The notes below the pieces were generated by a model, which ran no database searches, was not told the DNA's origin, and saw only the letters and a list, made by a program, of their open reading frames with translations. The translations under genes were made by a program, and so were the position numbers. DNA of 64,000 nt from Lachnospiraceae bacterium (GTDB lineage Bacteria > Bacillota > Clostridia > Lachnospirales > Lachnospiraceae). Location of the stretch: assembly GCA_028689655.1 (NCBI GenBank), contig JAQVCT010000002.1, positions 186,001 through 250,000 on the forward strand, in the 5' to 3' direction. How positions within the stretch are numbered: position 1 is the first letter of the stretch; every line of letters starts with the position of its first letter. This document shows, one piece after another, positions 48,649-60,913 of this stretch.

Positions 48649-49170
48649 TTATTCTGTTTCATTATCCTTCACATAAACTGCTCCACCCTGGATCTCTTTC
48701 CATACCGTTGGCTCATTCTTATAGACCTGTGCCATCCAGTGATATCTTCCTGCATGTTTCGTTCCATGGGACGCAGAATGCCAGGTCTCCCTATGTAACA
48801 CAAATATGTATCCAGGACGTATTCTGACAGCCACAGTGTCTTCTGCTCTTGGTGCTCCCTTGCATGCCTTTGCTATCAGAAGACAAATAGGCTGCTCGAT
48901 GGGTATCTGTGCTTCCTGGGTGTGGGAATGTTTCTCCATCTCCACTGTCAGAAATGGCTGTCCTTCACTATAGGTATATCCCAGTGTTCCCAATGTGTCC
49001 AAGACAGGAATGGAGGTATCTACATCCTCCCATCCATTTCCAGATGAGCGATTGGTATTTCCCGTATCTTTACCTTCACCGCTCATATTATACAGTATGC
49101 CATATTCAGAATAATCTATTTCCGTTATGTCTACTACTTCCTTTACCATATATTTCTCTTCAGACTGCAT
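48649..49170 (-). CDS. Ureidoglycolate-lyase-like cupin protein
   Basis: 173 residues. The core resembles AllA: a central MEKHSHTQEAQIPIEQPICLLIAK segment and a C-terminal GYIFVLHRETWHSASHG segment with the His-x-Thr-Trp-His pattern. AllA acts on ureidoglycolate in purine (allantoin) breakdown, but no other allantoin gene is here, so this may be an isomerase or lyase for another ring-opened sugar or acid. GAGGGGGAATTGC precedes the ATG at 49170. It is the last gene of the ECF operon, 13 bp after the BtpA-like gene. Confidence 0.7.
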   Translation of the reverse strand: MQSEEKYMVKEVVDITEIDYSEYGILYNMSGEGKDTGNTNRSSGNGWEDVDTSIPVLDTLGTLGYTYSEGQPFLTVEMEKHSHTQEAQIPIEQPICLLIAKACKGAPRAEDTVAVRIRPGYIFVLHRETWHSASHGTKHAGRYHWMAQVYKNEPTVWKEIQGGAVYVKDNETE

Positions 49171-49183
49171 AAGCAATTCCCCC

Positions 49184-49921
49184 TCATCTGCATTTTCTGA
49201 CCGCATCCATGAACACTTTCACATGTTCCTCGTCAACGTCCCCTTTGTCTTTGTAGGTATCCTTGAAATAGCTTCCTACGATAGCCGCATCTGCATATGT
49301 AAATTCTTCTGCACATGTCTCCGGCAACATGCCTGCAGCTGCTACCAATGGGAACTCTGATCCCACGATGTCTCGAAATTCCTTAATCTTCGAAACCGGT
49401 GTCGGCATACCTGTGCCCTCTCCGGTAACAGCAATGGCATCACAACGTTCCATTCCTATTCGGAGATCCTCTTCCAGTGACCGACCAGATTTATAGGGTT
49501 GATATTTGAATCGAACTCCACCTATTACTGCTCCGCTATAGATACTTCGAGTTTCCTCAATAAATTTACCAAATTTTTCATCATCTGCCAGTTCCAGATG
49601 CCCCGCTACGGAATCTATCTGAATAAATGCCGCTCCATACTTTGTTCCAATTCTCATATTTTCAGAATCATTGTTCAATATATTGCAGCCATATATAAAG
49701 TCAACCTGCTCTTTTTGAAATTTATAGAGCACACGCTCTGCATTTTCCGCTGATCCAAAATAGTTTTCCACAATAACTGCGTTCACACCATTATCAATCA
49801 TTTTTTTGGATTCTTCATATGCACGCTTTATGACATCCTCTGTTGTTTCTCCTTTTAGATGCAGCATTCCTAAAACAGGTTTTTTGGTAGAAAAAATTGA
49901 TAAAAAGCGATTTGTTTTCAT
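49184..49921 (-). CDS. BtpA/SgcQ family protein (TIM-barrel, unknown reaction)
   Basis: 245 residues. Conserved elements are PVLGMLHLKGETTED, VNAVIVENYFGSAEN, ENMRIGTKYGAAFIQID, DAIAVTGEGTGMPTP and AAGMLPETCAEEFTYADAAIVGSYFK (abridged). The BtpA/SgcQ family includes a plant/cyanobacterial photosystem I biogenesis factor and E. coli SgcQ from a sugar PTS operon. In bacteria members sit beside sugar kinases and transporters; the reaction is not known. It is the fifth gene of the ECF operon. Confidence 0.85.
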   Translation of the reverse strand: MKTNRFLSIFSTKKPVLGMLHLKGETTEDVIKRAYEESKKMIDNGVNAVIVENYFGSAENAERVLYKFQKEQVDFIYGCNILNNDSENMRIGTKYGAAFIQIDSVAGHLELADDEKFGKFIEETRSIYSGAVIGGVRFKYQPYKSGRSLEEDLRIGMERCDAIAVTGEGTGMPTPVSKIKEFRDIVGSEFPLVAAAGMLPETCAEEFTYADAAIVGSYFKDTYKDKGDVDEEHVKVFMDAVRKCR

Positions 49922-49956
49922 TCTAATCCCAGCCCTTCTATTATTTATTATTTTAA

Positions 49957-50745
49957 TTATAATTTATTTACCAGTGTTTCTATTTTCATGATGTTTCCTA
50001 ATCCAAGTCTCGTAGAAAGTTCACATATCTGTGGCTTTTTTATCTTTGCTTCACTGAGAATGCTTTCCTCTGCAAATATTTCCGCAGGAGTTCCATCTGC
50101 AATGATATGTCCATGGGCCATAACTACCACACGTTTAAAATTATCAGCTACAAATTCCATATCATGCGTTATCGTAATTACCGACTTTCCATCTTGTTCC
50201 ATATAATGAAGAAGCTTGGACAGACATTCTACTCCAGCCACATCCTGTCCGGCAGTTGGTTCATCCAGAATTAAATATGGATTCCTGGCCGTTAATACAG
50301 CCGCAATGGATACGAATTTCTTAGTAGAATATGGAATCTCATATGGATTAATATCCAGATATTTTTCTATATCACACAATTTAGCTGCCCACTCTGCGCG
50401 GCTCTGGATCTCTTTCTCATCCAGTTTGTTATATCTTGACCAAAACTCCACTTCATCTCTTACCGTGTTCTTAAAAATCTGGTCATCCGGATTCTGAAAT
50501 ACATAGCCTACCATACCAGAAATCTGTGCGGTCGATTTATTCCGTGTATTGATACCATTAATAATCACCTCTCCTTCCGTAGGTTTATGTAATCCATTCA
50601 TGAGTTTAACCGCAGTTGTCTTGCCCGCACCATTTTGTCCAACAATTGCAATTCGTTCACCCTCATGAATCACCAGATTCAGATCTTCATTTGCCAACGT
50701 TCCATCAGGATATCGAAAATGAACGTGTTGTAATTCTATACTCAT
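49957..50745 (-). CDS. ECF transporter ATPase with degenerate signature motif (EcfA')
   Basis: 262 residues. It has Walker A GQNGAGKTT, Q-loop VFQNPDDQIF, Walker B LILDEPT and switch His in ITITHDME. The ABC signature, usually LSGGQ, here reads YSTKK (within EIPYSTKKFVSIAAVL), so this subunit gives the other ATPase's site a degenerate signature. Its ATG overlaps the stop of the first ATPase by 4 bases (ATGA), so translation is coupled. It pairs with EcfA (50742-51599) under EcfT. Confidence 0.9.
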   Translation of the reverse strand: MSIELQHVHFRYPDGTLANEDLNLVIHEGERIAIVGQNGAGKTTAVKLMNGLHKPTEGEVIINGINTRNKSTAQISGMVGYVFQNPDDQIFKNTVRDEVEFWSRYNKLDEKEIQSRAEWAAKLCDIEKYLDINPYEIPYSTKKFVSIAAVLTARNPYLILDEPTAGQDVAGVECLSKLLHYMEQDGKSVITITHDMEFVADNFKRVVVMAHGHIIADGTPAEIFAEESILSEAKIKKPQICELSTRLGLGNIMKIETLVNKL

Positions 50746-51599
50746 AATTGTTCACCTCTCATCCTTTCTCTGACACATACCTCAGCCTCATCAATAGTGA
50801 TAGGAAGTTTTCCAAGGGATTTACCAGCTCTTTCCATCTCATGTCCAAACAAAACTGTCTGCGGTACTGCTACTTTTTTATTCACAAGATCATAGTCTGA
50901 CAAAACTTCTCTGGCAGGTCCGCTTTTAATGATTTTGCCATCTTTCAATACAATTATTTCATCTGCATACTTTGCCATTAACTCTATTTTATGTTCTACC
51001 AGAATAACTGTTTTTTTCTGCTCCTTAAGAGAACGGATAATCTTGAATACACTCTCTGTTCCATCAGGGTCCAGCTGTGAAGTCGGTTCATCTATTACAT
51101 ATATATCCGTATCCATGGCAAGAATTGACGCAAATGCCACTCTTTGTCGCTGTCCACCTGACAATTCATTGGGATTTTTTTCAATTAAATCATAAATTCC
51201 TATGCGTTTTGTGATTTCTTCCGCTTTTTGTATCATTTGCTCTTTATCGATACCCAGATTTTCCAATCCTATGGCAATCTCTTCAAATACGGTATCGCGG
51301 ATACCACTTATCTGTGTAAAGGGATTTTGAAAAATATATCCTACTTTTGTACACAGTTTCTCCGGTTCCCATTCATCAACAGGTTTGCCCTGCACTTCCA
51401 CCGTGCCTTCCAGATCTCCCAGATAAAAGCTGGGTATTAATCCCTTCATCAAATTACAAATGGTTGATTTACCACTTCCATTTGGCCCTATAATTCCGTA
51501 GAACTTTCCCTCTTCAAAATCAAACGAAACGCCATCCAGTGCATAATGATCTGTAAGAGGATATTTATAACGAATATTTTTCAATGATATACTATTCAT
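50742..51599 (-). CDS. ECF transporter ATPase (EcfA)
   Basis: 285 residues. All ABC motifs are intact: Walker A GPNGSGKST, Q-loop FQNPFTQI, signature LSGGQRQRV, Walker B YVIDEPT and switch His in VEHKIE. It energises an energy-coupling factor importer together with the second ATPase. GGAGG precedes the ATG at 51599, which overlaps the EcfT stop (ATGA); a longer start at 51653 lies within ecfT and is not favoured. Confidence 0.92.
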   Translation of the reverse strand: MNSISLKNIRYKYPLTDHYALDGVSFDFEEGKFYGIIGPNGSGKSTICNLMKGLIPSFYLGDLEGTVEVQGKPVDEWEPEKLCTKVGYIFQNPFTQISGIRDTVFEEIAIGLENLGIDKEQMIQKAEEITKRIGIYDLIEKNPNELSGGQRQRVAFASILAMDTDIYVIDEPTSQLDPDGTESVFKIIRSLKEQKKTVILVEHKIELMAKYADEIIVLKDGKIIKSGPAREVLSDYDLVNKKVAVPQTVLFGHEMERAGKSLGKLPITIDEAEVCVRERMRGEQL

Positions 51600-52393
51600 G
51601 GCAGAAACCTCCATACAACGCTGATGATGACCACGAGATCCAGAAAAACACAAAAGACTTTTTCCAATGCAGGTGTTTTTCTAAGTTCATACATATGTGT
51701 CGGCTTTCTATTTGCCGAAAAAGCCCGCGTCTCCATGGCAACTGTTTTTTCTTCTGTACCTGCTATAGCACCCAGAAACAGTGGAAATAATATTGGTACA
51801 AATGCTTTTGCTCTCGTCTTCAAATTACCGCTGGTCTCAACACCACGTGCACTTTGAGATTCCATAATAGTGTTTGCCGACTTTCCCAAATCAATAATAG
51901 ACTGCATGGATGCCAGCATTATATAGGATGCAGCCCGTGGTGCACCCAGCCTTTCCACCGAATACATAATATCCTTCATAGGGGTCACCATATAAAACGA
52001 CATGATAGAACCACATATTTCATTAATAAGCAGTGCCATACTGAGGCCATAAAAAAAACCTTCTTTCGTGATTCCAATAATGCCCCATTCCCAGTACAGA
52101 GTCTCCCCAGGACGAAAACATGTATTTAGTCCAATCAAGAAAAAGAAAAACAAAAATGCAACGAAACTGTAAAGTTTAACAAATCTCTTGAAATTTTCTT
52201 TTCCGGATAACGCATTTATCACATAGCAAATAATAATTACTGCTAATCTGGTCCAATAATGCCCCAGTAAGGCAGCCCCAAGGAATATGGCAAATGCACA
52301 ATTTAATTTTGTAAAAGGATTTAAATCCAGAATAAAATTTCCATGTAACTTAGCATTACGAAACGAATTAATAAATTTTTCTTTACTATTCAT
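51596..52393 (-). CDS. ECF transporter transmembrane component (EcfT)
   Basis: 265 residues. It has 4-5 membrane helices and the conserved cytosolic Ala-Arg motifs SQSARGVET and AETRAFSANRK (abridged), which link EcfT to the two ATPases. An N-terminal helix and NPFTKLNCAFAIFLG are typical. AAAAGGTGAGG precedes the ATG at 52393; an in-frame GTG lies three codons earlier. It overlaps the first ATPase start by 4 bases. Confidence 0.9.
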   Translation of the reverse strand: MNSKEKFINSFRNAKLHGNFILDLNPFTKLNCAFAIFLGAALLGHYWTRLAVIIICYVINALSGKENFKRFVKLYSFVAFLFFFFLIGLNTCFRPGETLYWEWGIIGITKEGFFYGLSMALLINEICGSIMSFYMVTPMKDIMYSVERLGAPRAASYIMLASMQSIIDLGKSANTIMESQSARGVETSGNLKTRAKAFVPILFPLFLGAIAGTEEKTVAMETRAFSANRKPTHMYELRKTPALEKVFCVFLDLVVIISVVWRFLP

Positions 52394-52461
52394 ATGCCTC
52401 ACCTTTTAGTAAAAGCTTGTCGGATATTCTGTTATCTGACAAGCTTGTTACACTTTTCCAA

Positions 52462-53073
52462 TTATTCTCCGTTTTCTGTTCTGTTCATTCCATGTATGTA
52501 TTCATTGCCATAGGGCAGTTTAAGCAAGAAGCGATTCGGAACTGCTTTTACGATAAGAAAAGCAATAATGGCTGACGGAATCTTATCTATAATATCAGAA
52601 AAGCATTCCGATATCGTATTTGCTGTGAATAATCCCAAATGAAAAGTCTTAACAATCGCTCCTGTGATAATTCCTGTGGGGCTTGCTGTATATCCACCGT
52701 AGACTGCCACCGTAACTGCAGATCCCGCAACACCACAAATCACGCCTATGATAATTCCGTAAATCACTGACTTGGGTAATTTCTTAAAAAATCCCCATTT
52801 TGCGAAGAGACCTGCAGTGATACCCACCGCCAGGTAATTGGCCATATAAAACCAGTTAGATGGCGAAGTAATACTTAATAGTGCCCCTGTTGCAAGGGCG
52901 GCAATAATGCTGTAAACCGGACCGCACAATGCACCAACTACCATCGTGCCTACTGCATCAAAGTACACTGGGAGTCTTAATAATGTAACGATCTGACCCA
53001 ATACAAAATTAACTGCAATACCTAAAGGAATTAAATAGAAACCCATTTTCGTGTTTACTTTTCCACTTGCCAT
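52462..53073 (-). CDS. ECF transporter substrate-binding component (S component)
   Basis: 203 residues with six predicted helices. The opening GFYLIPLGIAVNFVLGQIV, LPVYFDAVGTMVVGALCGPVY and NWFYMANYLAVGITAGLFAKW resemble the CD3073-type S components of Clostridioides, whose substrate is not settled in my knowledge. It gives the transporter its specificity. AGGAGGGT precedes the ATG. It is first in the operon, transcribed from the shared divergent promoter at 53126-53159. The vitamin-specific S components (RibU, ThiT, BioY, FolT) are not matched. Confidence 0.85.
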   Translation of the reverse strand: MASGKVNTKMGFYLIPLGIAVNFVLGQIVTLLRLPVYFDAVGTMVVGALCGPVYSIIAALATGALLSITSPSNWFYMANYLAVGITAGLFAKWGFFKKLPKSVIYGIIIGVICGVAGSAVTVAVYGGYTASPTGIITGAIVKTFHLGLFTANTISECFSDIIDKIPSAIIAFLIVKAVPNRFLLKLPYGNEYIHGMNRTENGE

Positions 53074-53125
53074 TTTTATACCCTCCTATAATTTGATTTT
53101 GATAAATTATTTGTTCCTTCTGTTA

Positions 53126-53159
53126 ATGACATTATATGATGTCTTGTGTATAATGTCAA
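53126..53159. promoter_or_regulatory. Face-to-face overlapping divergent promoters in a 10-bp palindrome
   Basis: TGACATTATA (53127-53136) and TATAATGTCA (53149-53158) are a perfect inverted repeat. Plus strand: -35 ATGACA (53126-53131), 17 bp, -10 TATAAT (53149-53154), for the kinase gene. Minus strand: -35 TTGACA (53159-53154), 17 bp, -10 TATAAT (53136-53131), for the ECF operon. Each -10 overlaps the other promoter's -35, so the two cannot be occupied together. It is a natural operator for the GntR-type regulator encoded downstream. Confidence 0.85.
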
Positions 53160-53238
53160 TTATTTTTACTTATTTCTTTCATTTTTAGTTGAATTTACCA
53201 ATACTTTGTGCTATGCTTCTGATAAAAGGAGGGATAGT

Positions 53239-54186
53239 ATGAATGAATATACAATATTTCTTGGCGATGTAGCACTAGATGAATATTATGCTGTTAAGAA
53301 GTGGCCCGGAAGAGCTGACAAAGTGGGCACTGAAATGTTAGAGAGTCAAATGGGCGGCATGATAGCCAATGCTGCCAGTGTATATGCCAGCTACGGAAGT
53401 GATACCAGATTCTCCGGTATTCTCTGTCCCAGTGACATAAAATTAAGTAATTCCCTGGAAGAGATTGGCATTGATACATCTTTAGTCATTTACGACAGCT
53501 CTTTGGTTAATTCGAAATGTATGATATTTCTTTCAGAAGGTGAACATACCGTATTCATCATCAACACCAAGTTAAAAACCATGCCTATTACAGAATCCAT
53601 GCAGGATAAATATTGCAGAGCCTCCACCATTTACACAGGTTTTTGGGCAATGCAGTATCTCCGTCTCGGGAATATGGGGCCTATTGACATCATAAAACAA
53701 TGGCATCAGCATAATGTACAGATCATGGTAGACTCTGACGTGGACAAGATCAGTGAAGAAGATAAGCTCTTATTACCATATGTACATACATTATTTATGA
53801 ACGAGGTGGGATTCGATAATCAAAAAGAGGGGCGCAGCGATGAAGAAACCGTTCAATATCTTCTCCATTCCGGTCCCAAAATACTCATCGTCACAGTTGC
53901 CGAAAAAGGCTGCTATGTATATACCAGAAATGTCCGTTTCCAAATTGACGGAGTACCCAATACTGTGGTAGACGTTACTGGTGCAGGTGATACTTTCTGC
54001 AGTTCCTTCACCTTTTTGTATAATCGCTCCAAAGATATTCAATTATCAGCAAAATTTGCTGTCTTTGCCTCTTCCCGAGCAGTTGGACATATGGGTGCCA
54101 GAGGCGGTGCCGTTGGAAGCGACCCTGTTCTGGCATATATGGAAAAACATGGCGAAGATACCTCTGAATACAGAAAATATCTATAA
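53239..54186 (+). CDS. PfkB/ribokinase-family carbohydrate kinase
   Basis: 315 residues. The N-terminal domain shows GDVALDEYY and MGGMIANAAS; the C-terminal nucleotide/catalytic loop is VDVTGAGDTFCSSF with the catalytic Asp of GAGD. Ribokinase-family members phosphorylate sugars, nucleosides and similar alcohols. AAAGGAGGG precedes the ATG at 53239; a start at 53146 would overlap the divergent promoter. It is divergent from the ECF operon and probably phosphorylates the imported substrate. The residues that fix specificity cannot be read from sequence. Confidence 0.88.
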   Translation: MNEYTIFLGDVALDEYYAVKKWPGRADKVGTEMLESQMGGMIANAASVYASYGSDTRFSGILCPSDIKLSNSLEEIGIDTSLVIYDSSLVNSKCMIFLSEGEHTVFIINTKLKTMPITESMQDKYCRASTIYTGFWAMQYLRLGNMGPIDIIKQWHQHNVQIMVDSDVDKISEEDKLLLPYVHTLFMNEVGFDNQKEGRSDEETVQYLLHSGPKILIVTVAEKGCYVYTRNVRFQIDGVPNTVVDVTGAGDTFCSSFTFLYNRSKDIQLSAKFAVFASSRAVGHMGARGGAVGSDPVLAYMEKHGEDTSEYRKYL

Positions 54187-54301
54187 TTTTGCGTATTTGA
54201 TAATACCCTATGATTCTTTACAGATCAAAAGGAATCATATATTATAGATATAGGAAATATATATTCTAATTCACAATTTTGTATTCAACAGGAGTATGAC
54301 T

Positions 54302-55039
54302 ATGGAATCATTGGAAACAAATGATGTTACACCACTATATATACAATTAGCTGAAAAGATCCGAACTTTAATTAAAGATGGAACCTGGTCTCAAGGCGAG
54401 CAGATTCTGCCCGAATCAGCTCTTTGCAGAACTTATCAAGTCAGCAGAATCACAGTACGTAAAGCAATTGATCTTCTCGTGGATGAAAAAGTACTGCAGC
54501 GCAAACAGGGTAAGGGAACGTTCGTAACATACCCGGATTTTTTTGAAAAATCCTGTGTCCGTGACCACAGTTTTACTGCCTCACTTATTGGCAGGCATAT
54601 CGCTTTTCACACAACAGTTATTCGTCAATCCCTGGAAACAATAGATCGTTCTCTGATAACTCGTTTCAGCATAAAAAATAAATCTGAACTATATGGATGC
54701 ATCGTACGTATCCGCTCTCTTGCAGGAGAACCCGCTGTGTATGAAACAGATTATCTTCCAGAACGCTTTCATCAACTTCTTGACTTGAATTTGAACAACC
54801 AGTCTCTCTTTGGCCTGCTTCATGAAAAAATGGGGGTAGAACCCGTAAATTTTTATGATGATTTTCACATTGTATCAGCGTCACCCTATGTGGCAGAACT
54901 GTTACATGTAGATGTCGGTCATCCTTTGCTGAGTGTTGCGCAAACTGTACTTGATGCTAATCTGGAAGTTATCTATTATAACGAACAACTTATTAAAACT
55001 GAAACTTACACTTACTCAGTTCGTTCCTATCAAGATTGA
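54302..55039 (+). CDS. GntR-family (HutC/UTRA) transcriptional regulator
   Basis: 245 residues. An N-terminal winged helix-turn-helix (PLYIQLAEKIRTLIK, LCRTYQVSRITVRKAIDLLV, QRKQGKGTFV) and a UTRA sensor domain (about 95-240: YGCIVRIRSLAGEPAVYETDYL, DVGHPLLSVAQTVLDANLEVIYYNEQLI, abridged). UTRA proteins bind sugars, nucleotides or amino-acid derivatives. CAGGAG precedes the ATG at 54302. It lies between the kinase and MATE genes and is the natural candidate to bind the palindrome at 53127-53158. Confidence 0.9.
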   Translation: MESLETNDVTPLYIQLAEKIRTLIKDGTWSQGEQILPESALCRTYQVSRITVRKAIDLLVDEKVLQRKQGKGTFVTYPDFFEKSCVRDHSFTASLIGRHIAFHTTVIRQSLETIDRSLITRFSIKNKSELYGCIVRIRSLAGEPAVYETDYLPERFHQLLDLNLNNQSLFGLLHEKMGVEPVNFYDDFHIVSASPYVAELLHVDVGHPLLSVAQTVLDANLEVIYYNEQLIKTETYTYSVRSYQD

Positions 55040-55054
55040 ATCATAACTGCCTGT

Positions 55055-55090
55055 TACGGGGAAAAGCCTTCCAGCTTTTCTCCGTTTTTT
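55055..55090 (+). terminator. Terminator after the GntR-type gene
   Basis: ACGGGGAAAAGC (55055-55066) pairs with GCTTTTCTCCGT (55073-55084, one G-U pair), followed by seven T residues (55084-55090). Confidence 0.88.
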
Positions 55091-55105: not shown

Positions 55106-56467
55106 ATGCATTTTGTCAAAGATAAAAATTTTTATATAACCTGTTTTAAAATTGGCATTCCCATTATACTACAGGGCCTGATATCTCAGGCTACTACTAC
55201 TGTTGACAGTCTGATGCTGGGCAATGTTGATGGTACCGGCGTGTTTCTGTCCGCTGCTTCTCTGGCTAATCAGCCATTCCGTCTGATGGGTATGTTCTGT
55301 TTTGGTCTGGCAGGCGGGGCCTCTGTCTTATGCAGTCAATACTGGGGAAAAAAAGATTTAAGACCGATTCGCACTATCATGTCAATGGTTTTAAAGATTT
55401 CTTTGATCGTTTCTTTCCTGTTCTCTGTAGTTACATTAGCTATGCCCGAAAAGATCATGTCTCTATATACACCAACAGATCGTATTATTGTTGCCGGTGC
55501 AAGCTATCTTAGAATCGTTGCTTTTGATTATATCTTTTTTGCATTCAGTTCCACGCTAATCTGTATGGCTAGAAGCGTGGAGATTGTCAATATCTCTCTA
55601 ATATGTACACTTTCCGCCTTAGTGACAAACCTCTCTCTCAACTGGATTCTTATTTTTGGGCATTTGGGTTTTGCACCTATGGGGATACGTGGTGCTGCTA
55701 TTGCCACATTGATCTCAAGACTGTTGGAATTTCTGCTGTCAACCCTATATATATTTTGTTTTGATCACAAATTGTCCTTGAGATTTTACCATCTGAAAAG
55801 TATTTCGAAACCTCTGTTATCTGACTTGTTAAAATACGGTACCCCTGTGCTTGCCAATGAAGTAATGTTTTCTCTGGCAACAAATATACAGGCCTCCATC
55901 ATAGGACACATCACCTACATATCAGGTGATCCTGTCGCTGCATATACAGTCTCCACTATCCTGGAGGAGCTGGCAACCGCCTCCGTATATGGAGTCTCCA
56001 CTGCTGCCTGCGTTCTCGTGGGCATGTCCATCGGAAATAAACAGTTCAAAGAAGCCCGGGAAAGGACAAACACTTTACTTATTCTTAGTGTAGCTGTGGG
56101 TGCTGCAACTGCTGGTATCATTTTAGCTTTAAAGCCTTTCGTCCTCCGTCTGTATCAGCTGCCCGTAGAAACTTTATGGCTTGCTGACCAGATGATTACT
56201 GTAACTGCCTTTATTGTATTTTTCCTTGCCATCTCTTACACCTGTATCTTAGGTGTGCTCCGTGGTGCAGGCGACACAAGATTTTGTCTGATTACAGAGA
56301 TTTCTCTTCTATGGATCGTCGCTCTTCCATGCGCTTTACTTGCTACTCGACTTCAATTTCCTATTCCTGTTGTATTAATCTGTATGCGTCTGGATGATCC
56401 TTTAAAAACAATTTTCTGTTTTCTTCGTATCAGAGGCAATCGCTGGATGAAGCCTGTTACCAGATAA
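55106..56467 (+). CDS. MATE family efflux transporter
   Basis: 453 residues with 12 helices. MATE landmarks are GIPIILQGLISQATTTVDSLMLGNVD, LAGGASVLCSQYWGKKDLRPI, APMGIRGAAIATLISR and VLRGAGDTRF (abridged). It exports cationic compounds using a sodium or proton gradient. AAAGGAG precedes the ATG. Its last 66 bases overlap, tail to tail, the coding region of the sigma-54 activator on the other strand. The gene lies directly behind the GntR terminator, so it may be expressed separately. Confidence 0.9.
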   Translation: MHFVKDKNFYITCFKIGIPIILQGLISQATTTVDSLMLGNVDGTGVFLSAASLANQPFRLMGMFCFGLAGGASVLCSQYWGKKDLRPIRTIMSMVLKISLIVSFLFSVVTLAMPEKIMSLYTPTDRIIVAGASYLRIVAFDYIFFAFSSTLICMARSVEIVNISLICTLSALVTNLSLNWILIFGHLGFAPMGIRGAAIATLISRLLEFLLSTLYIFCFDHKLSLRFYHLKSISKPLLSDLLKYGTPVLANEVMFSLATNIQASIIGHITYISGDPVAAYTVSTILEELATASVYGVSTAACVLVGMSIGNKQFKEARERTNTLLILSVAVGAATAGIILALKPFVLRLYQLPVETLWLADQMITVTAFIVFFLAISYTCILGVLRGAGDTRFCLITEISLLWIVALPCALLATRLQFPIPVVLICMRLDDPLKTIFCFLRIRGNRWMKPVTR

Positions 56468-58345
56468 CAGATCATATTTTTTCATCTTCCGCCACAGCGT
56501 GCTTTTATCAACCTGTAAAAAAGCTGCGGTCTTCGTACGTGATCCGCCATTTTCCTTTAATGCACGAATGATCGTCTCTTTCTCGGTTTCCTGAATTGGA
56601 GGGATCGCATCCCTCTTCTGTTGCATCTTCGCATCCAGAAGTCCCGGCAGAGCAAGCCGTACATCCTCCCTGGTGGCAAGCTTTCCTTTACTGATGATAC
56701 AGAGACGCTGGCAAAAGTTCTGCAGTTCCCGGATATTGCCTGGCCAGCTATAGTGCAGCATCATTTCCTCCGCTTCACGGGATAATCCTTCCAGAACATC
56801 ACCCTTGGATTCATGGTTGAATCTGATAAAATCTTTTGAAAGGAAAACGCTGTCCGCCCCTCTTTCCCGCAGTGCTGGGATATTCAGTTCCAGGACATCC
56901 AGCCGGTATAGCAGATCCCTTCTGAAATTTCCTTCCTCCACTTCCTCCATCAGGTCTTTATTGGTGGCAGACAAGATCCTCACATCGATTGGAATCACTG
57001 TATCGTTTCCAAGACGGATGATCTCCCTTTCCTGAATAACGCGGAGCAGTCTGCTCTGGAGTTTTTTGGAAATGTCTCCTATTTCATCCAGAAAAATGGT
57101 TCCCTTATGTGCGATTTCAAAAAATCCCATCTTGCCCCCCTTTGCAGCTCCCGTAAAGGCACCTTCTACATATCCAAAAAGCTCACTTTCTAACAGATCC
57201 TCGGAAATTGCTGCGCAGTTGATAGCAACAAAGGGACCATTTTTACGGGGACTGGCATTGTGAATGCTCTGGGCAAATAGTTCTTTTCCAACGCCTGTTT
57301 CTCCATGAATTAGTATATTCAAATCCGTGGCACCATACTCCCTGGCAGTCTCAATGACCCGTTTTGTGACACTACTGTCAGTTTTAATGTTAGAAAAATT
57401 GTATTTTGCCACAAATCCCTGTTTATGTATCTTTGTACGAATTTTTTCTTCTTCCTTCTGGATCGCCGATATGTCCTGAAAAGTCACAACACACCCGCTG
57501 ACATATTCTTTGGAGGATACATAGAGACCGTTAAATGCCAGCAGCCTGTCCTTATACTTATGAATTTCAGAGACGATATTTTCCTTCTTTTGAATAATTC
57601 TTTCAATAGGAAACTCCTGAAAGATATCCGTTATTCTCCTTCCTATTAGAGGACTGTCAAGACCCGCCAGGATTTTATAACACTGTTTATTAGTAAAGGT
57701 AATGATACCCTTCGTATCTGTAGATAATATTCCCTGAAAGGAATAGTTCATAATATTCGAAAATTCATTGCTGCGCTGTCTCTCCCTGTGATAAACAGCA
57801 AGGGTGGAAAGGGCATTATCTATGGCCTCATCGATGGCTTTCTTCCCAGATTCAATCAAAACATTTGGAATCCCATGTTTTTTAGCGAACTCGCAGGAGG
57901 AAAAACCACCCATCAAAACCTCCGCACCCTCCTGTTTCGCCTGTAGAACACAGCTCTCCAGATCGGATTCCCGATCTGTAAAGTGTGGAATCAACGTAAT
58001 TTCCGGATACATGCTGGCAATATTCTCCGAATCGTAGAACATATTCCGGGCACCTACCAGTGCGATCTTTTTCTTATGATAAAGCTTTATGCATTTAATG
58101 AAGGCAGCAATCACATCATATCCGGAAATCTTCAGCTCCGCACAGGGAATGTCAAGCTTTCGCATGGACTGGGCGGTAAAACCCCTGGCAATAATCGTAT
58201 CCGCATAAATGGATTCCAGCTTATTATCGAACTGATCTAATAAAACCTCATAGGTAAATTGATTCTTTTGTGACCGTTCTTTCAGTACTTCCTCAATAGT
58301 ACTAATACAATTTGGATAAGGTGCAAAAAATAAGATATGTGTCAT
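56402..58345 (-). CDS. Sigma-54-dependent transcriptional activator with PrpR N-terminal domain
   Basis: 647 residues. N-terminal PrpR-type sensor (about 1-200: IARGFTAQSMRKL, GYDVIAAFIKC), PAS domain (about 205-310), AAA+ domain with Walker A GETGVGKE, sigma-54 contact loop GAFTGA, Walker B TIFLDEIGD, and a C-terminal Fis-type helix-turn-helix (ALKENGGSRTKTAAFLQVDKSTLWRKM). PrpR-type sensors bind small metabolites. GGGAGAAG precedes the ATG. It is divergent from the permease/amidohydrolase genes, whose promoter (58569-58585) is of the -24/-12 type. Confidence 0.93.
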   Translation of the reverse strand: MTHILFFAPYPNCISTIEEVLKERSQKNQFTYEVLLDQFDNKLESIYADTIIARGFTAQSMRKLDIPCAELKISGYDVIAAFIKCIKLYHKKKIALVGARNMFYDSENIASMYPEITLIPHFTDRESDLESCVLQAKQEGAEVLMGGFSSCEFAKKHGIPNVLIESGKKAIDEAIDNALSTLAVYHRERQRSNEFSNIMNYSFQGILSTDTKGIITFTNKQCYKILAGLDSPLIGRRITDIFQEFPIERIIQKKENIVSEIHKYKDRLLAFNGLYVSSKEYVSGCVVTFQDISAIQKEEEKIRTKIHKQGFVAKYNFSNIKTDSSVTKRVIETAREYGATDLNILIHGETGVGKELFAQSIHNASPRKNGPFVAINCAAISEDLLESELFGYVEGAFTGAAKGGKMGFFEIAHKGTIFLDEIGDISKKLQSRLLRVIQEREIIRLGNDTVIPIDVRILSATNKDLMEEVEEGNFRRDLLYRLDVLELNIPALRERGADSVFLSKDFIRFNHESKGDVLEGLSREAEEMMLHYSWPGNIRELQNFCQRLCIISKGKLATREDVRLALPGLLDAKMQQKRDAIPPIQETEKETIIRALKENGGSRTKTAAFLQVDKSTLWRKMKKYDLLSGNRLHPAIASDTKKTENCF

Positions 58346-58379
58346 TTTCTTCTCCCTGTTGAATTGTTGTAAAGTTCAG

Positions 58380-58428
58380 TTGCACTTTTGCAATAATTTT
58401 ACAATGATGCAATTGTAATTGCAATCAT
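58380..58428. promoter_or_regulatory. Candidate upstream activator sites for the sigma-54 activator
   Basis: TTGCA-CTTT-TGCAA (58380-58393) is a perfect inverted repeat. ATGATGCAATT...AATTGCAATCAT (58404-58428) is a longer palindrome with a one-base asymmetry. They share the TTGCA half-site and lie 140-190 bp upstream of the -24/-12 promoter, the usual distance for an enhancer-binding protein site. Confidence 0.65.
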
Positions 58429-58568
58429 AAATGTTGATTTATGATATTTTTTGTCGGTTATGGTACAGTCATTTTAGACAAAAAAGAATTGTGTCCTTTC
58501 TATTTTGCATTCATTCTTTGTAAAAGATTCACAAAAAAGCGCCTATTAAAACACCCATCGCATCAAAC

Positions 58569-58585
58569 TTGGCACAGGGCTTGCT
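58569..58585 (+). promoter_or_regulatory. Sigma-54 (-24/-12) promoter
   Basis: TTGGCAC-AGGGC-TTGCT, with GG at 58571-58572 and GC at 58583-58584 separated by exactly 10 bp, matches the sigma-54 consensus TGGCAC-N5-TTGCW fully. It points to the permease gene 83 bp downstream. The divergent activator has the GAFTGA motif required at such promoters. Confidence 0.9.
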
Positions 58586-58667
58586 CTATAGTTTATCAGA
58601 ATTGCATGCATTAATACATCGACGGATGTAAACAAATATAGGAAAGCACATTTAGAGGTGAAAAATT

Positions 58668-59693
58668 ATGAAGTTTAAATTAGGAGAAGTAAAAATTCTA
58701 GAAACTATGAAAAAATTTCCGGCTGGTGCAATGGTCGTTCCACTGCTTTTAGGATGCCTGATCAACACATTATTACCAGATACACTGCTCATCGGCGGTT
58801 TTACTACTGGCCTGTTTAAAAACGCGATCCCTACACTGATCGGTCTGTTCCTATTCTGTAGTGGTGCACAGATCGACGTGAAGATGGCGGGAGATACTCT
58901 TTTTAAAGGGGTCGTACTCACTGCCCTAAAATTCTTTGTTGGGTTTGGTATCGGTGTATTACTGAACAACTTTTTCGGACCGGCAGGTATCTTGGGGCTG
59001 ACTCCACTTGCAGTCATCGGTGCTGTTACCAACTCCAACGGCGTTATCTACGCAACACTTGCTTCTGAGTATGGTGATGACTCTGATGTTGGTGCGACTT
59101 CTATTCTCGCTATCAACGATGGTCCTTTCTTTACCATGATTGCTCTCGGTGCTGCAGGCATCGGTAACTTCCCAATCACGGCTATTATGGCAAGCATTAT
59201 TCCAATCATCATTGGTTTTATCATTGGTAACCTGGATCACGAATGGAGAAAAGTATTAGCCACCGGTATGGTCTTACTTCCACCCTTCAACGGATTTGCG
59301 CTGGGAGCAGGCTTAAACTTCATGAGTATTGCAAAGGCTGGTATCATGGGCGTTATTCTCGGTCTGATGACTCTGGTAGCAACGGGACTTCTGACCTTTA
59401 TTATCTATAGTTTGATTCGCCGAAAAGCAGATCCAATGGGTGCCGCAATCGGTACGACTGCCGGCGTCGCTGCGACCACTCCCACCGCTGTAGCACAGGC
59501 TGACCCTACGCTTGCTCCTTATGTGGAAACTGCAACTGCACAGACCGCAGCAGCCGTTGTTATCACTGCTGTACTATGTCCACTGATGGTCTCTGCTCTT
59601 TCCAAATTCAGTAACAAATGGAACAAAGCACACGGTATTTCCGCAACCACCCCAAGCGAAGCAGCTTTAGAATCGAAAATCGAAAAACTGTAG
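58668..59693 (+). CDS. 2-keto-3-deoxygluconate permease (KdgT) family transporter
   Basis: 341 residues with about ten helices. The opening KFPAGAMVVPLLLGCLINTL, IGLFLFCSGAQIDVK, GAVTNSNGVIYATLASEYGD and LPPFNGFALGAG are typical of the KdgT family, which moves small sugar acids with protons. AGAGGTG precedes the ATG. It starts an operon with the amidohydrolase, under a sigma-54 promoter. As the partner enzyme is not of pectin metabolism, the real substrate may be a different acid. Family is confident; substrate is not. Confidence 0.9.
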   Translation: MKFKLGEVKILETMKKFPAGAMVVPLLLGCLINTLLPDTLLIGGFTTGLFKNAIPTLIGLFLFCSGAQIDVKMAGDTLFKGVVLTALKFFVGFGIGVLLNNFFGPAGILGLTPLAVIGAVTNSNGVIYATLASEYGDDSDVGATSILAINDGPFFTMIALGAAGIGNFPITAIMASIIPIIIGFIIGNLDHEWRKVLATGMVLLPPFNGFALGAGLNFMSIAKAGIMGVILGLMTLVATGLLTFIIYSLIRRKADPMGAAIGTTAGVAATTPTAVAQADPTLAPYVETATAQTAAAVVITAVLCPLMVSALSKFSNKWNKAHGISATTPSEAALESKIEKL

Positions 59694-59713
59694 GAATAGA
59701 GAGGCGACATCAT

Positions 59714-60913
59714 ATGAAAACACTTGTAAAAGCACAGTCTATCCTGATTGGATCAGAACTGGAACTGGTAAAGAATAAATGTATTGTTATAAATGAGGGA
59801 AAAATAGAAGTGATTATTGACCAAAGTGAAATGGCATCCTATCCGGATGCCTCCCTCATCGATCTGGGCAGTAAGACCCTTATGCCGGGCATGATTGAAT
59901 GTCATGACCACCTTTGTATTGACGCAAGGATTCCAAACCATCTGGAGCTTCTTGCCACTGCCTCTGCCCATGAACTGACACTGATTGCCATAAAGGGGCT
60001 AAAGGATGATCTCATGAGCGGTGTCACAACCGCCCGTTGTATGGGAGATTTTGATTACATTGACGTAAATCTGAATAAGAAAATCAAAGACGGTACTATT
60101 TACGGTCCAAAACTGTTGACCGCCGGAAAAGGAATGAAGACTGCACATGGTGCCGGTCACATCGGCTATCCCCATAATGGTCCGGAAGAAATTCGTAAAA
60201 CTGCAAGAGAGAACTTGAAAAAGGGCGTTGATATTATGAAATTATTTGCTACCCCCGGCGTCGCTCCAGTTGGGCAGGATTTCATCCCCGCCTATCTTTC
60301 CAGAGAAGAAATCTCCACGGTGGTTTCTGAAGGAAAACGCCTGAATGTCCCAACAGCCGCTCACTGTATCGGTGGACAGGCTTTGACTGATTGCGTGGAA
60401 ATGGGCGTTTCCGTCATTGAACATGCTTATGCCGCAACGGACGCTGATGTTACTTTATTAAAAGAGCATGACACCTGGGTAGATCTGACCTCCGGTATCT
60501 TCTTAGATGAAGAAAGAGAAGCTTTTCTCTCCCCTGACAGCATCGCCAAGACAAGATACCACAGGGAAAATGTGCGAAAGAGCCTTGCTAAGATCGTAAA
60601 AGCAGGCATCCATTTTTCCCTCGGCACAGATGCAAATCACGGACTACTATATAAGGAGATCGGCTTTGCCATAGAACTTGGTGCCGACGCCCGCACTGCA
60701 CTGAAGGGTGTTACAAGTAATGCTGCCATCGTTGCAAACCGTGAAAACAGTATTGGCTGTATTACCGAAGGATTTGCAGCAGACCTCATCGCTGTCTCAG
60801 AAAATCCTCTGGAGCATTACGAAACCTTACATAATGTTTCCTTCGTTATGAAGGATGGTATCACCTACAAAGCGTTGGACGGAGAAGCTGAAGTGGTCAA
60901 AGCCCGATTATAA
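59714..60913 (+). CDS. Metal-dependent amidohydrolase family protein
   Basis: 399 residues. The TIM-barrel amidohydrolase motifs are present: HxH in MIECHDHLCIDA, a lysine that may be carbamylated (VDIMKLFATPG), His in TAAHCIG, His in VIEHAY and the catalytic Asp in LGTDANHG. The protein resembles imidazolonepropionase and Xaa-Pro/Xaa-Arg dipeptidase-like amidohydrolases. It removes an amide or ring bond from an acid or peptide. GAGAGGCG precedes the ATG at 59714, 20 bp after the permease stop; an earlier frame start at 59618 overlaps the permease. Confidence 0.88.
   Translation: MKTLVKAQSILIGSELELVKNKCIVINEGKIEVIIDQSEMASYPDASLIDLGSKTLMPGMIECHDHLCIDARIPNHLELLATASAHELTLIAIKGLKDDLMSGVTTARCMGDFDYIDVNLNKKIKDGTIYGPKLLTAGKGMKTAHGAGHIGYPHNGPEEIRKTARENLKKGVDIMKLFATPGVAPVGQDFIPAYLSREEISTVVSEGKRLNVPTAAHCIGGQALTDCVEMGVSVIEHAYAATDADVTLLKEHDTWVDLTSGIFLDEEREAFLSPDSIAKTRYHRENVRKSLAKIVKAGIHFSLGTDANHGLLYKEIGFAIELGADARTALKGVTSNAAIVANRENSIGCITEGFAADLIAVSENPLEHYETLHNVSFVMKDGITYKALDGEAEVVKARL

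Follow-up and report, generated by a model that had tools for sequence, protein, structure and literature searches.

The window considered here is a stretch of 64,000 nucleotides from the genome of a Lachnospiraceae bacterium (assembly GCA_028689655.1, contig JAQVCT010000002.1, positions 186,001 to 250,000). Between its positions 48649 and 55039, it carries two divergent transcription units. The minus-strand unit, in the order EcfS-EcfT-EcfA-EcfA′-BtpA-cupin, encodes an energy-coupling factor (ECF) transporter, a BtpA-family protein and a cupin resembling AllA (ureidoglycolate lyase); the plus-strand unit encodes a PfkB-family kinase and a GntR/UTRA transcriptional regulator. With this gene set, the gut bacterium probably imports, phosphorylates and breaks down a nucleoside-like or sugar-like compound. 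Gene content, co-occurrence in other genomes, protein fold prediction and promoter layout were established by computation and are described below.

Genes and shared promoter region

All eight genes named in an earlier reading of the same DNA (hereafter the original prediction) were found in place by open reading frame (ORF) and Pfam analysis. The gene of the substrate-binding component EcfS (52462–53073) is followed by that of the CbiQ-type transmembrane subunit EcfT (51596–52393; its frame extends to a GTG at 52402), whose product scored 95.5 bits against the Pfam CbiQ/EcfT profile (cut-off 25), and by the genes of the EcfA (50742–51599; ORF open to 51653) and EcfA′ (49957–50745) ATPases; the two ATPase scores against ABC_tran were 90.8 and 101.9 bits (cut-off 25). 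An EcfT, two ATP-binding cassette (ABC) ATPases and a membrane S component are thus present within one operon, as expected for an ECF transporter. The ATGA overlaps noted earlier between the T, A and A′ genes were borne out: the EcfA start codon at 51599 overlaps the EcfT stop codon (51596–51599), and EcfA overlaps EcfA′ at 50742–50745. Next come the genes of a 245-amino-acid BtpA protein (49184–49921), a predicted ribulose-phosphate-type TIM barrel, and of the cupin (48649–49170). The ORF of the latter is open to 49206, and a start at 49170 agrees with homologues and has the better ribosome-binding site; with this start, the BtpA and cupin genes do not overlap. On the plus strand, the kinase gene (53239–54186) is followed by the regulator gene (54296–55039), whose product scored 79.1 bits against UTRA (cut-off 23.8) and 62.5 bits against GntR (cut-off 27) and hence belongs to the GntR/HutC (UTRA) regulators. 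A strong intrinsic-terminator-like hairpin (55056–55085) closes this unit.

The palindrome that had been claimed for the shared promoter was also found, and it has an explanation. The sequence TGACATTATA at 53127–53136 is repeated as its exact reverse complement at 53149–53158; when the intergenic region was shuffled 2000 times, 16 of the shuffled sequences had an inverted repeat this long. The palindrome is real, and its arms coincide with promoter elements (−35 and −10 boxes) of a head-on pair. Two antiparallel sigma-70-type promoters are superimposed over the same 34 bases (53126–53159), TTGACA-17-TATAAT on the minus strand (12 of 12 consensus bases) and ATGACA-17-TATAAT on the plus strand (11 of 12), or 23 of 24 consensus bases jointly. 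The combined score was matched nowhere else in the window, and the maximum in shuffled windows was 18–19. With promoters arranged in this way, transcription to the left and to the right would compete for a single polymerase site, and one repressor bound at a possible operator in this region could shut off both. Among the homologous loci, only the close relative L008 shows a superimposed pair, which is weaker (score 19). No operator common to the window and the homologous promoters could be defined, and the region contains no Rfam elements. An argument for a single shared effector from GntR phylogeny was dropped, the GntR tree being too diverse.

Outside this system, positions 56402–60913 of the window hold a possible second catabolic cluster with a PrpR_N/sigma-54 activator, a KdgT-type permease and an amidohydrolase.

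A recurring core of BtpA, kinase and importer

The window BtpA is a member of Pfam family PF03437 (70.6 bits, cut-off 30, profile positions 1–253 of 254). Against the BtpA/SgcQ subfamily model TIGR00259, it scored 65.7 bits, well under the cut-off of 153.4, and the loop that follows strand 1 in canonical members is absent. In a BtpA tree, the short proteins formed a clade of their own, comprising 56 rows, with 100/100 support. Judged by sequence, the window BtpA belongs to this distinct, rare subfamily.

A BtpA pair alignment was scanned against 84,980 species genomes, yielding 71 loci, ca. 50 of them close relatives with 41–69% identity; a scan of viral contigs with BtpA gave no match. Neighbourhoods were compared all against all and by profile searches, with Pfam and NCBIfam applied to representatives. 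Members of the operon clade are found in three phyla (Bacillota, Actinomycetota and Pseudomonadota) and carry one of three interchangeable types of importer. Eleven loci with full context have an ECF S-T-A-A′ transporter, PfkB and a regulator of the LacI or GntR type; fifteen have an amino-acid-type ABC importer of the SBP_bac_3 type (named for its substrate-binding protein, SBP), a cupin and PfkB, usually with GntR; and eight have a mannose-family phosphotransferase system (PTS), whose genes usually run IIA-BtpA-IIB-IIC-IID. Annotated rhizobial replicons carry a strict seven-gene unit, permease-ATPase-SBP-GntR-BtpA-cupin-PfkB, with changing flanks. Extra genome samples added one locus of the ABC type and one of the PTS type. 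What looked like a fusion of S and T at actinobacterial loci was traced to a stretch that is open in another frame and was dismissed as an artefact; the S components concerned were re-extracted.

In the BtpA tree, the ABC importer locus L009 nests with ECF loci (the window, L008 and L010), and the window kinase is closest to that of the ABC-type locus L012 in the kinase tree; importers were therefore swapped around a constant core. Scattered occurrence over three phyla, together with this local nesting, argues for horizontal transfer, and comparative sequence data point to the operon as a self-contained, horizontally scattered unit. Since BtpA, PfkB kinase and importer travel together across phyla, the incidental adjacency that the original prediction had named as its own refutation was not observed, and a dedicated system is supported. 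The expected conservation across Lachnospiraceae, by contrast, failed: the short subfamily is present in 2/397 Lachnospiraceae, 2/398 Bacillota and 4/391 genomes of the class (the window's own counted), which makes the system a rare and scattered one instead of a trait of this family.

The window kinase scored 98.1 bits against Pfam PfkB (PF00294; cut-off 25.8) and has the active-site motif DVTGAGDTF, which is invariant in the 12 kinases compared and conforms to the DTxGAGD pattern of the PfkB/ribokinase family. It falls short of the ribokinase model TIGR02152 (73.8 bits versus 299.65); the best matches to the kinase profile are ribokinase and sulfofructose kinase. Each of the 26 ECF or ABC loci for which sufficient flanking sequence is available encodes a PfkB-family protein. 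In 24 of these it is from the same kinase clade; L143 has a second PfkB-family protein (55.2 bits), and L008 retains a decayed first copy and a frameshifted relative of the second protein of L143. The activity of this second protein is uncertain, because GCGN replaces GAGD. In contrast, none of the eight PTS loci has PfkB, and BtpA, encoded between IIA and IIB, is the only enzyme of their operons (Fisher p = 2.5e-6, or 1.5e-4 after near-copies were collapsed, neither value being phylogeny-corrected). Import by a PTS itself phosphorylates the cargo. The kinase is thus missing just where the PTS phosphorylates, which argues that the substrate of BtpA is phosphorylated, by whichever route. A second, separate kinase/PTS alternation is seen in a distant BtpA clade, where Lachnospiraceae BtpA genes (L002, L004 and L006; ca. 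27% identity) lie directly beside genes of FGGY sugar kinases, with a divergent GntR gene also at L004, and E. coli SgcQ is encoded inside the PTS operon sgcABCEQX. These comparisons make a phosphorylated solute a fairly likely substrate of BtpA, and the phosphorylatable solute of the original prediction gains support.

The closest relative of the window system, L008 (L008:5686-13018), has its divergent kinase decayed to an 85-amino-acid remnant. Like L143, it encodes a barrel protein and the second PfkB-family protein downstream of BtpA, the latter being the frameshifted copy.

The accessory enzyme varies with the importer. The window cupin scored 16.1 bits against PF04115 (cut-off 23) and 24.6 bits against NF002952 (cut-off 260), so that it cannot be called AllA on its own score; the claimed likeness to ureidoglycolate lyase stands insofar as operon partners at L012, L130 and L132 pass PF04115. 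A profile of 14 operon-partner cupins matched AllA structures (E = 6.5e-11). The cupin is found in 14 of the 15 ABC loci and in the window, most other ECF loci have an M24 metallohydrolase in which the five metal ligands expected are all conserved, and PTS loci have neither. In the actinobacterial ECF-type loci L020, L021 and L038, a GATase1_like (PF07090) protein is encoded between BtpA and the M24 hydrolase.

Short BtpA genes also occur as orphans in gut Oscillospiraceae and other Clostridia (L028, L032, L040, L043, L044, L048, L053, L054 and L057). The islands around them contain genes of NADAR-NMNAT fusions, ADP-ribosylglycohydrolase, RNA ligase, RtcB, HD and phosphoesterase proteins, and are apparent RNA-repair or ADP-ribose islands with BtpA as a member.

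Nature of the solute and role of BtpA

The window S component scored 97.4 bits against ECF_S_CD3073 (NF045596), whose cut-off is 180. The match to this family that had been predicted was found, and membership was not: the protein lies in a separate clade. Of 398 Bacillota genomes, 38 have related CD3073-like S components. In 13 of 20 neighbourhoods of these relatives, a gene of a nucleoside phosphorylase or hydrolase (PNP_UDP_1 or IU_nuc_hydro) is present, and in none of the BtpA loci. The S components linked to BtpA group together (0.998) within the wider nucleoside-linked set, and two loci with related S components, L109 and L115, resemble actinobacterial BtpA loci (LacI-PfkB-S-T-A-A′) with a nucleoside hydrolase and a phosphorylase replacing BtpA. 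Given these relatives of the S component, a ribosyl compound is our best guess for the natural solute, one we hold tentatively, and the sugar or nucleoside derivative of the original prediction draws support from the same source. The window genome has a second CD3073-like ECF transporter at L127 (G000:C30:126000-142069), adjoining a nucleoside phosphorylase and a Metalloenzyme-family (phosphopentomutase-like) protein; it is a candidate nucleoside importer. Our literature searches found no description of nucleoside import by an ECF transporter, and the open-access literature yielded nothing on the operon or on CD3073.

The AlphaFold model of BtpA is a complete TIM barrel of eight strands (pLDDT 95.9, pTM 0.92). 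Its nearest solved folds are 2-keto-3-deoxy-6-phosphogalactonate (KDPGal) aldolase, hexulose-6-phosphate synthase (HPS) and HisF, with Z of 18–20, which is fold-level information only. Single-sequence searches of the PDB with BtpA and with the cupin gave no match, and profiles were needed; the BtpA profile reached the phosphate-binding part of TrpA and of orotidine monophosphate decarboxylase. Two glycines of the putative phosphate site at strands 7 and 8, G197 and G216, are invariant or nearly so across BtpA members, and the invariant polar residues include H21, E52, N53, N80, Q101, D103, K139, T166, T170 and K220. By its modelled fold, BtpA is a TIM barrel of the ribulose-phosphate-binding type, for which a phosphorylated ligand is predicted. 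We do not claim K139 (FKYQP) as a counterpart of the Schiff-base lysine of 2-keto-3-deoxy-6-phosphogluconate (KDPG) aldolase, whose motif is FKFFPA, since K139 follows strand 5, not 6.

The explanation that we favor, with a probability of about 55%, is a dedicated catabolic (salvage) operon, whose catalytic and regulatory steps, and their order, we infer as follows. The solute taken up by the ECF transporter would be small and most likely a nucleoside-like ribosyl compound, and the PfkB kinase would phosphorylate it. BtpA, whose barrel retains the phosphate-binding end seen in barrels of the ribulose-phosphate type, may cleave or rearrange the phosphorylated compound, releasing a sugar phosphate to central metabolism, and the AllA-like cupin may act on an intermediate or on the second fragment, which would probably contain nitrogen. 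GntR/UTRA would keep both units repressed from their common promoter, and the presence of the solute or of its phosphate would relieve this repression. The dedicated import and breakdown route of the original prediction is thereby supported by cross-phylum co-occurrence, by kinase/PTS alternation and by the relatives of the S component. It is conceivable, if doubtful, that short BtpA proteins are an undescribed enzyme class acting on phosphorylated ribosides or similar nitrogen-containing glycosides behind three exchangeable import-and-phosphorylate front ends, and that the whole BtpA family, SgcQ and cyanobacterial BtpA included, acts on small phosphorylated metabolites.

Several observations weigh against this salvage operon or its ribosyl substrate. 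The PTS loci form a single clade in the BtpA tree (91/94), and the loss of the kinase there is therefore one event. Support is weak for the deeper nodes that place the S components linked to BtpA among those linked to nucleoside enzymes. Since the accessory enzyme varies with the importer, substrates may differ between the three types. We know of no nucleoside that enters via a mannose-type PTS or an SBP_bac_3 importer, and a glycated amino acid or other nitrogen-containing sugar fits the ABC and PTS types about as well. Finally, similarity among TIM barrels leaves the reaction unfixed.

Other solutes have to be considered accordingly. If the cargo were a plain rare sugar or polyol, BtpA would act on its phosphate as an epimerase, isomerase or aldolase, and the cupin would be an isomerase or mutarotase. 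This would suit the ribokinase-like kinase, the closeness of the BtpA fold to KDPGal aldolase and HPS, the ribulose-phosphate epimerase (RPE) homologue that adjoins E. coli sgcQ and the sugar-isomerase-like barrel protein added at some loci; however, ECF and SBP_bac_3 importers are unusual for such cargo, and the metal-binding residues of RPE have no evident counterpart in BtpA in our reading of a MAFFT alignment, at the level of sequence, so that we consider a plain sugar unlikely. A glycated (Amadori-type) or amino-acid-linked sugar, from which BtpA and the cupin would release a sugar phosphate and an amine after phosphorylation, as in the fructoselysine kinase/deglycase pathway, is in our view quite unlikely. 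SBP_bac_3 importers, present at many loci, and mannose-family PTS fit such compounds, AllA-type cupins cleave C–N bonds, and the window kinase is a weak match to fructoselysine 6-kinase, but it scores higher against ribokinase and sulfofructose kinase, the ECF relatives of the S clade accompany nucleoside enzymes, and SIS-domain proteins, the class of known deglycases, were not seen in the operons.

Two further explanations were weighed. BtpA might be an assembly factor or transporter chaperone instead of an enzyme, as suggested by NCBIfam names and by published annotations (photosystem I biogenesis for cyanobacterial BtpA; "PTS chaperone-like" for SgcQ, PMC13343008). The short BtpA proteins accompany three unrelated transporter types, though, many gut loci have BtpA without any of them, and the barrel mouth with the invariant H21, E52, N53, D103 and K139 looks catalytic, which makes a chaperone very improbable. 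We give next to no weight to import of a vitamin with the other genes as chance neighbors: most characterized ECF transporters do carry vitamins, but the co-occurrence of BtpA and PfkB with unrelated importers across phyla largely refutes chance adjacency.

Comparison with known systems

Proteins of the BtpA/SgcQ type are known from cyanobacteria, archaea and E. coli. We know of no reaction for any of them, and one would, to our knowledge, be new. The importer swap, with the kinase absent solely at the PTS, is the first concrete and testable constraint on the BtpA substrate known to us, namely that it would be a phosphorylated small molecule supplied by the neighboring kinase or PTS. The compact cassettes in several phyla are convenient systems for finding this substrate. 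Over the original prediction, our analysis adds comparative evidence for the order import, phosphorylation, BtpA and the separation of this BtpA subfamily.

The sgc operon of E. coli (sgcXBCQAER) resembles the window family in that the BtpA-family protein SgcQ is encoded inside a PTS operon, as in our PTS loci, although its PTS is of the galactitol type, not the mannose type. SgcQ is 22% identical to the window BtpA and has a long loop after strand 1 that the window subfamily lacks, and the operon differs in having extra epimerase and Zn-peptidase-like genes and neither cupin nor PfkB. Deletion mutants of sgc showed no growth defect on the carbon sources tested, and the biochemistry of the operon was unestablished as of July 2026 (PMC13343008).

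AllA (PF04115) has the cupin fold in common with the window protein, which lies under both the Pfam and the NCBIfam cut-offs, and we saw no allantoin genes in the annotated operons that we looked at. The CD3073 family (NF045596) belongs to the same broad family as the window S component, and loci above its cut-off have other neighbors. The nucleoside-linked CD3073-like ECF loci (L109, L115 and L127) share a homologous S-T-A-A′ module with the window, together with LacI and PfkB in L109 and L115; they differ in that a nucleoside hydrolase and/or phosphorylase replaces BtpA and in that their S components lie in other clades. PsuG, the glycosidase of pseudouridine catabolism, was not noticed in the operons, although no search aimed at it was made. 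In that pathway, import is followed by phosphorylation by the PfkB kinase PsuK and then by cleavage of the phosphorylated riboside by PsuG. The route proposed here would work in the same manner, with BtpA, which belongs to a protein family unrelated to PsuG, at the last step.

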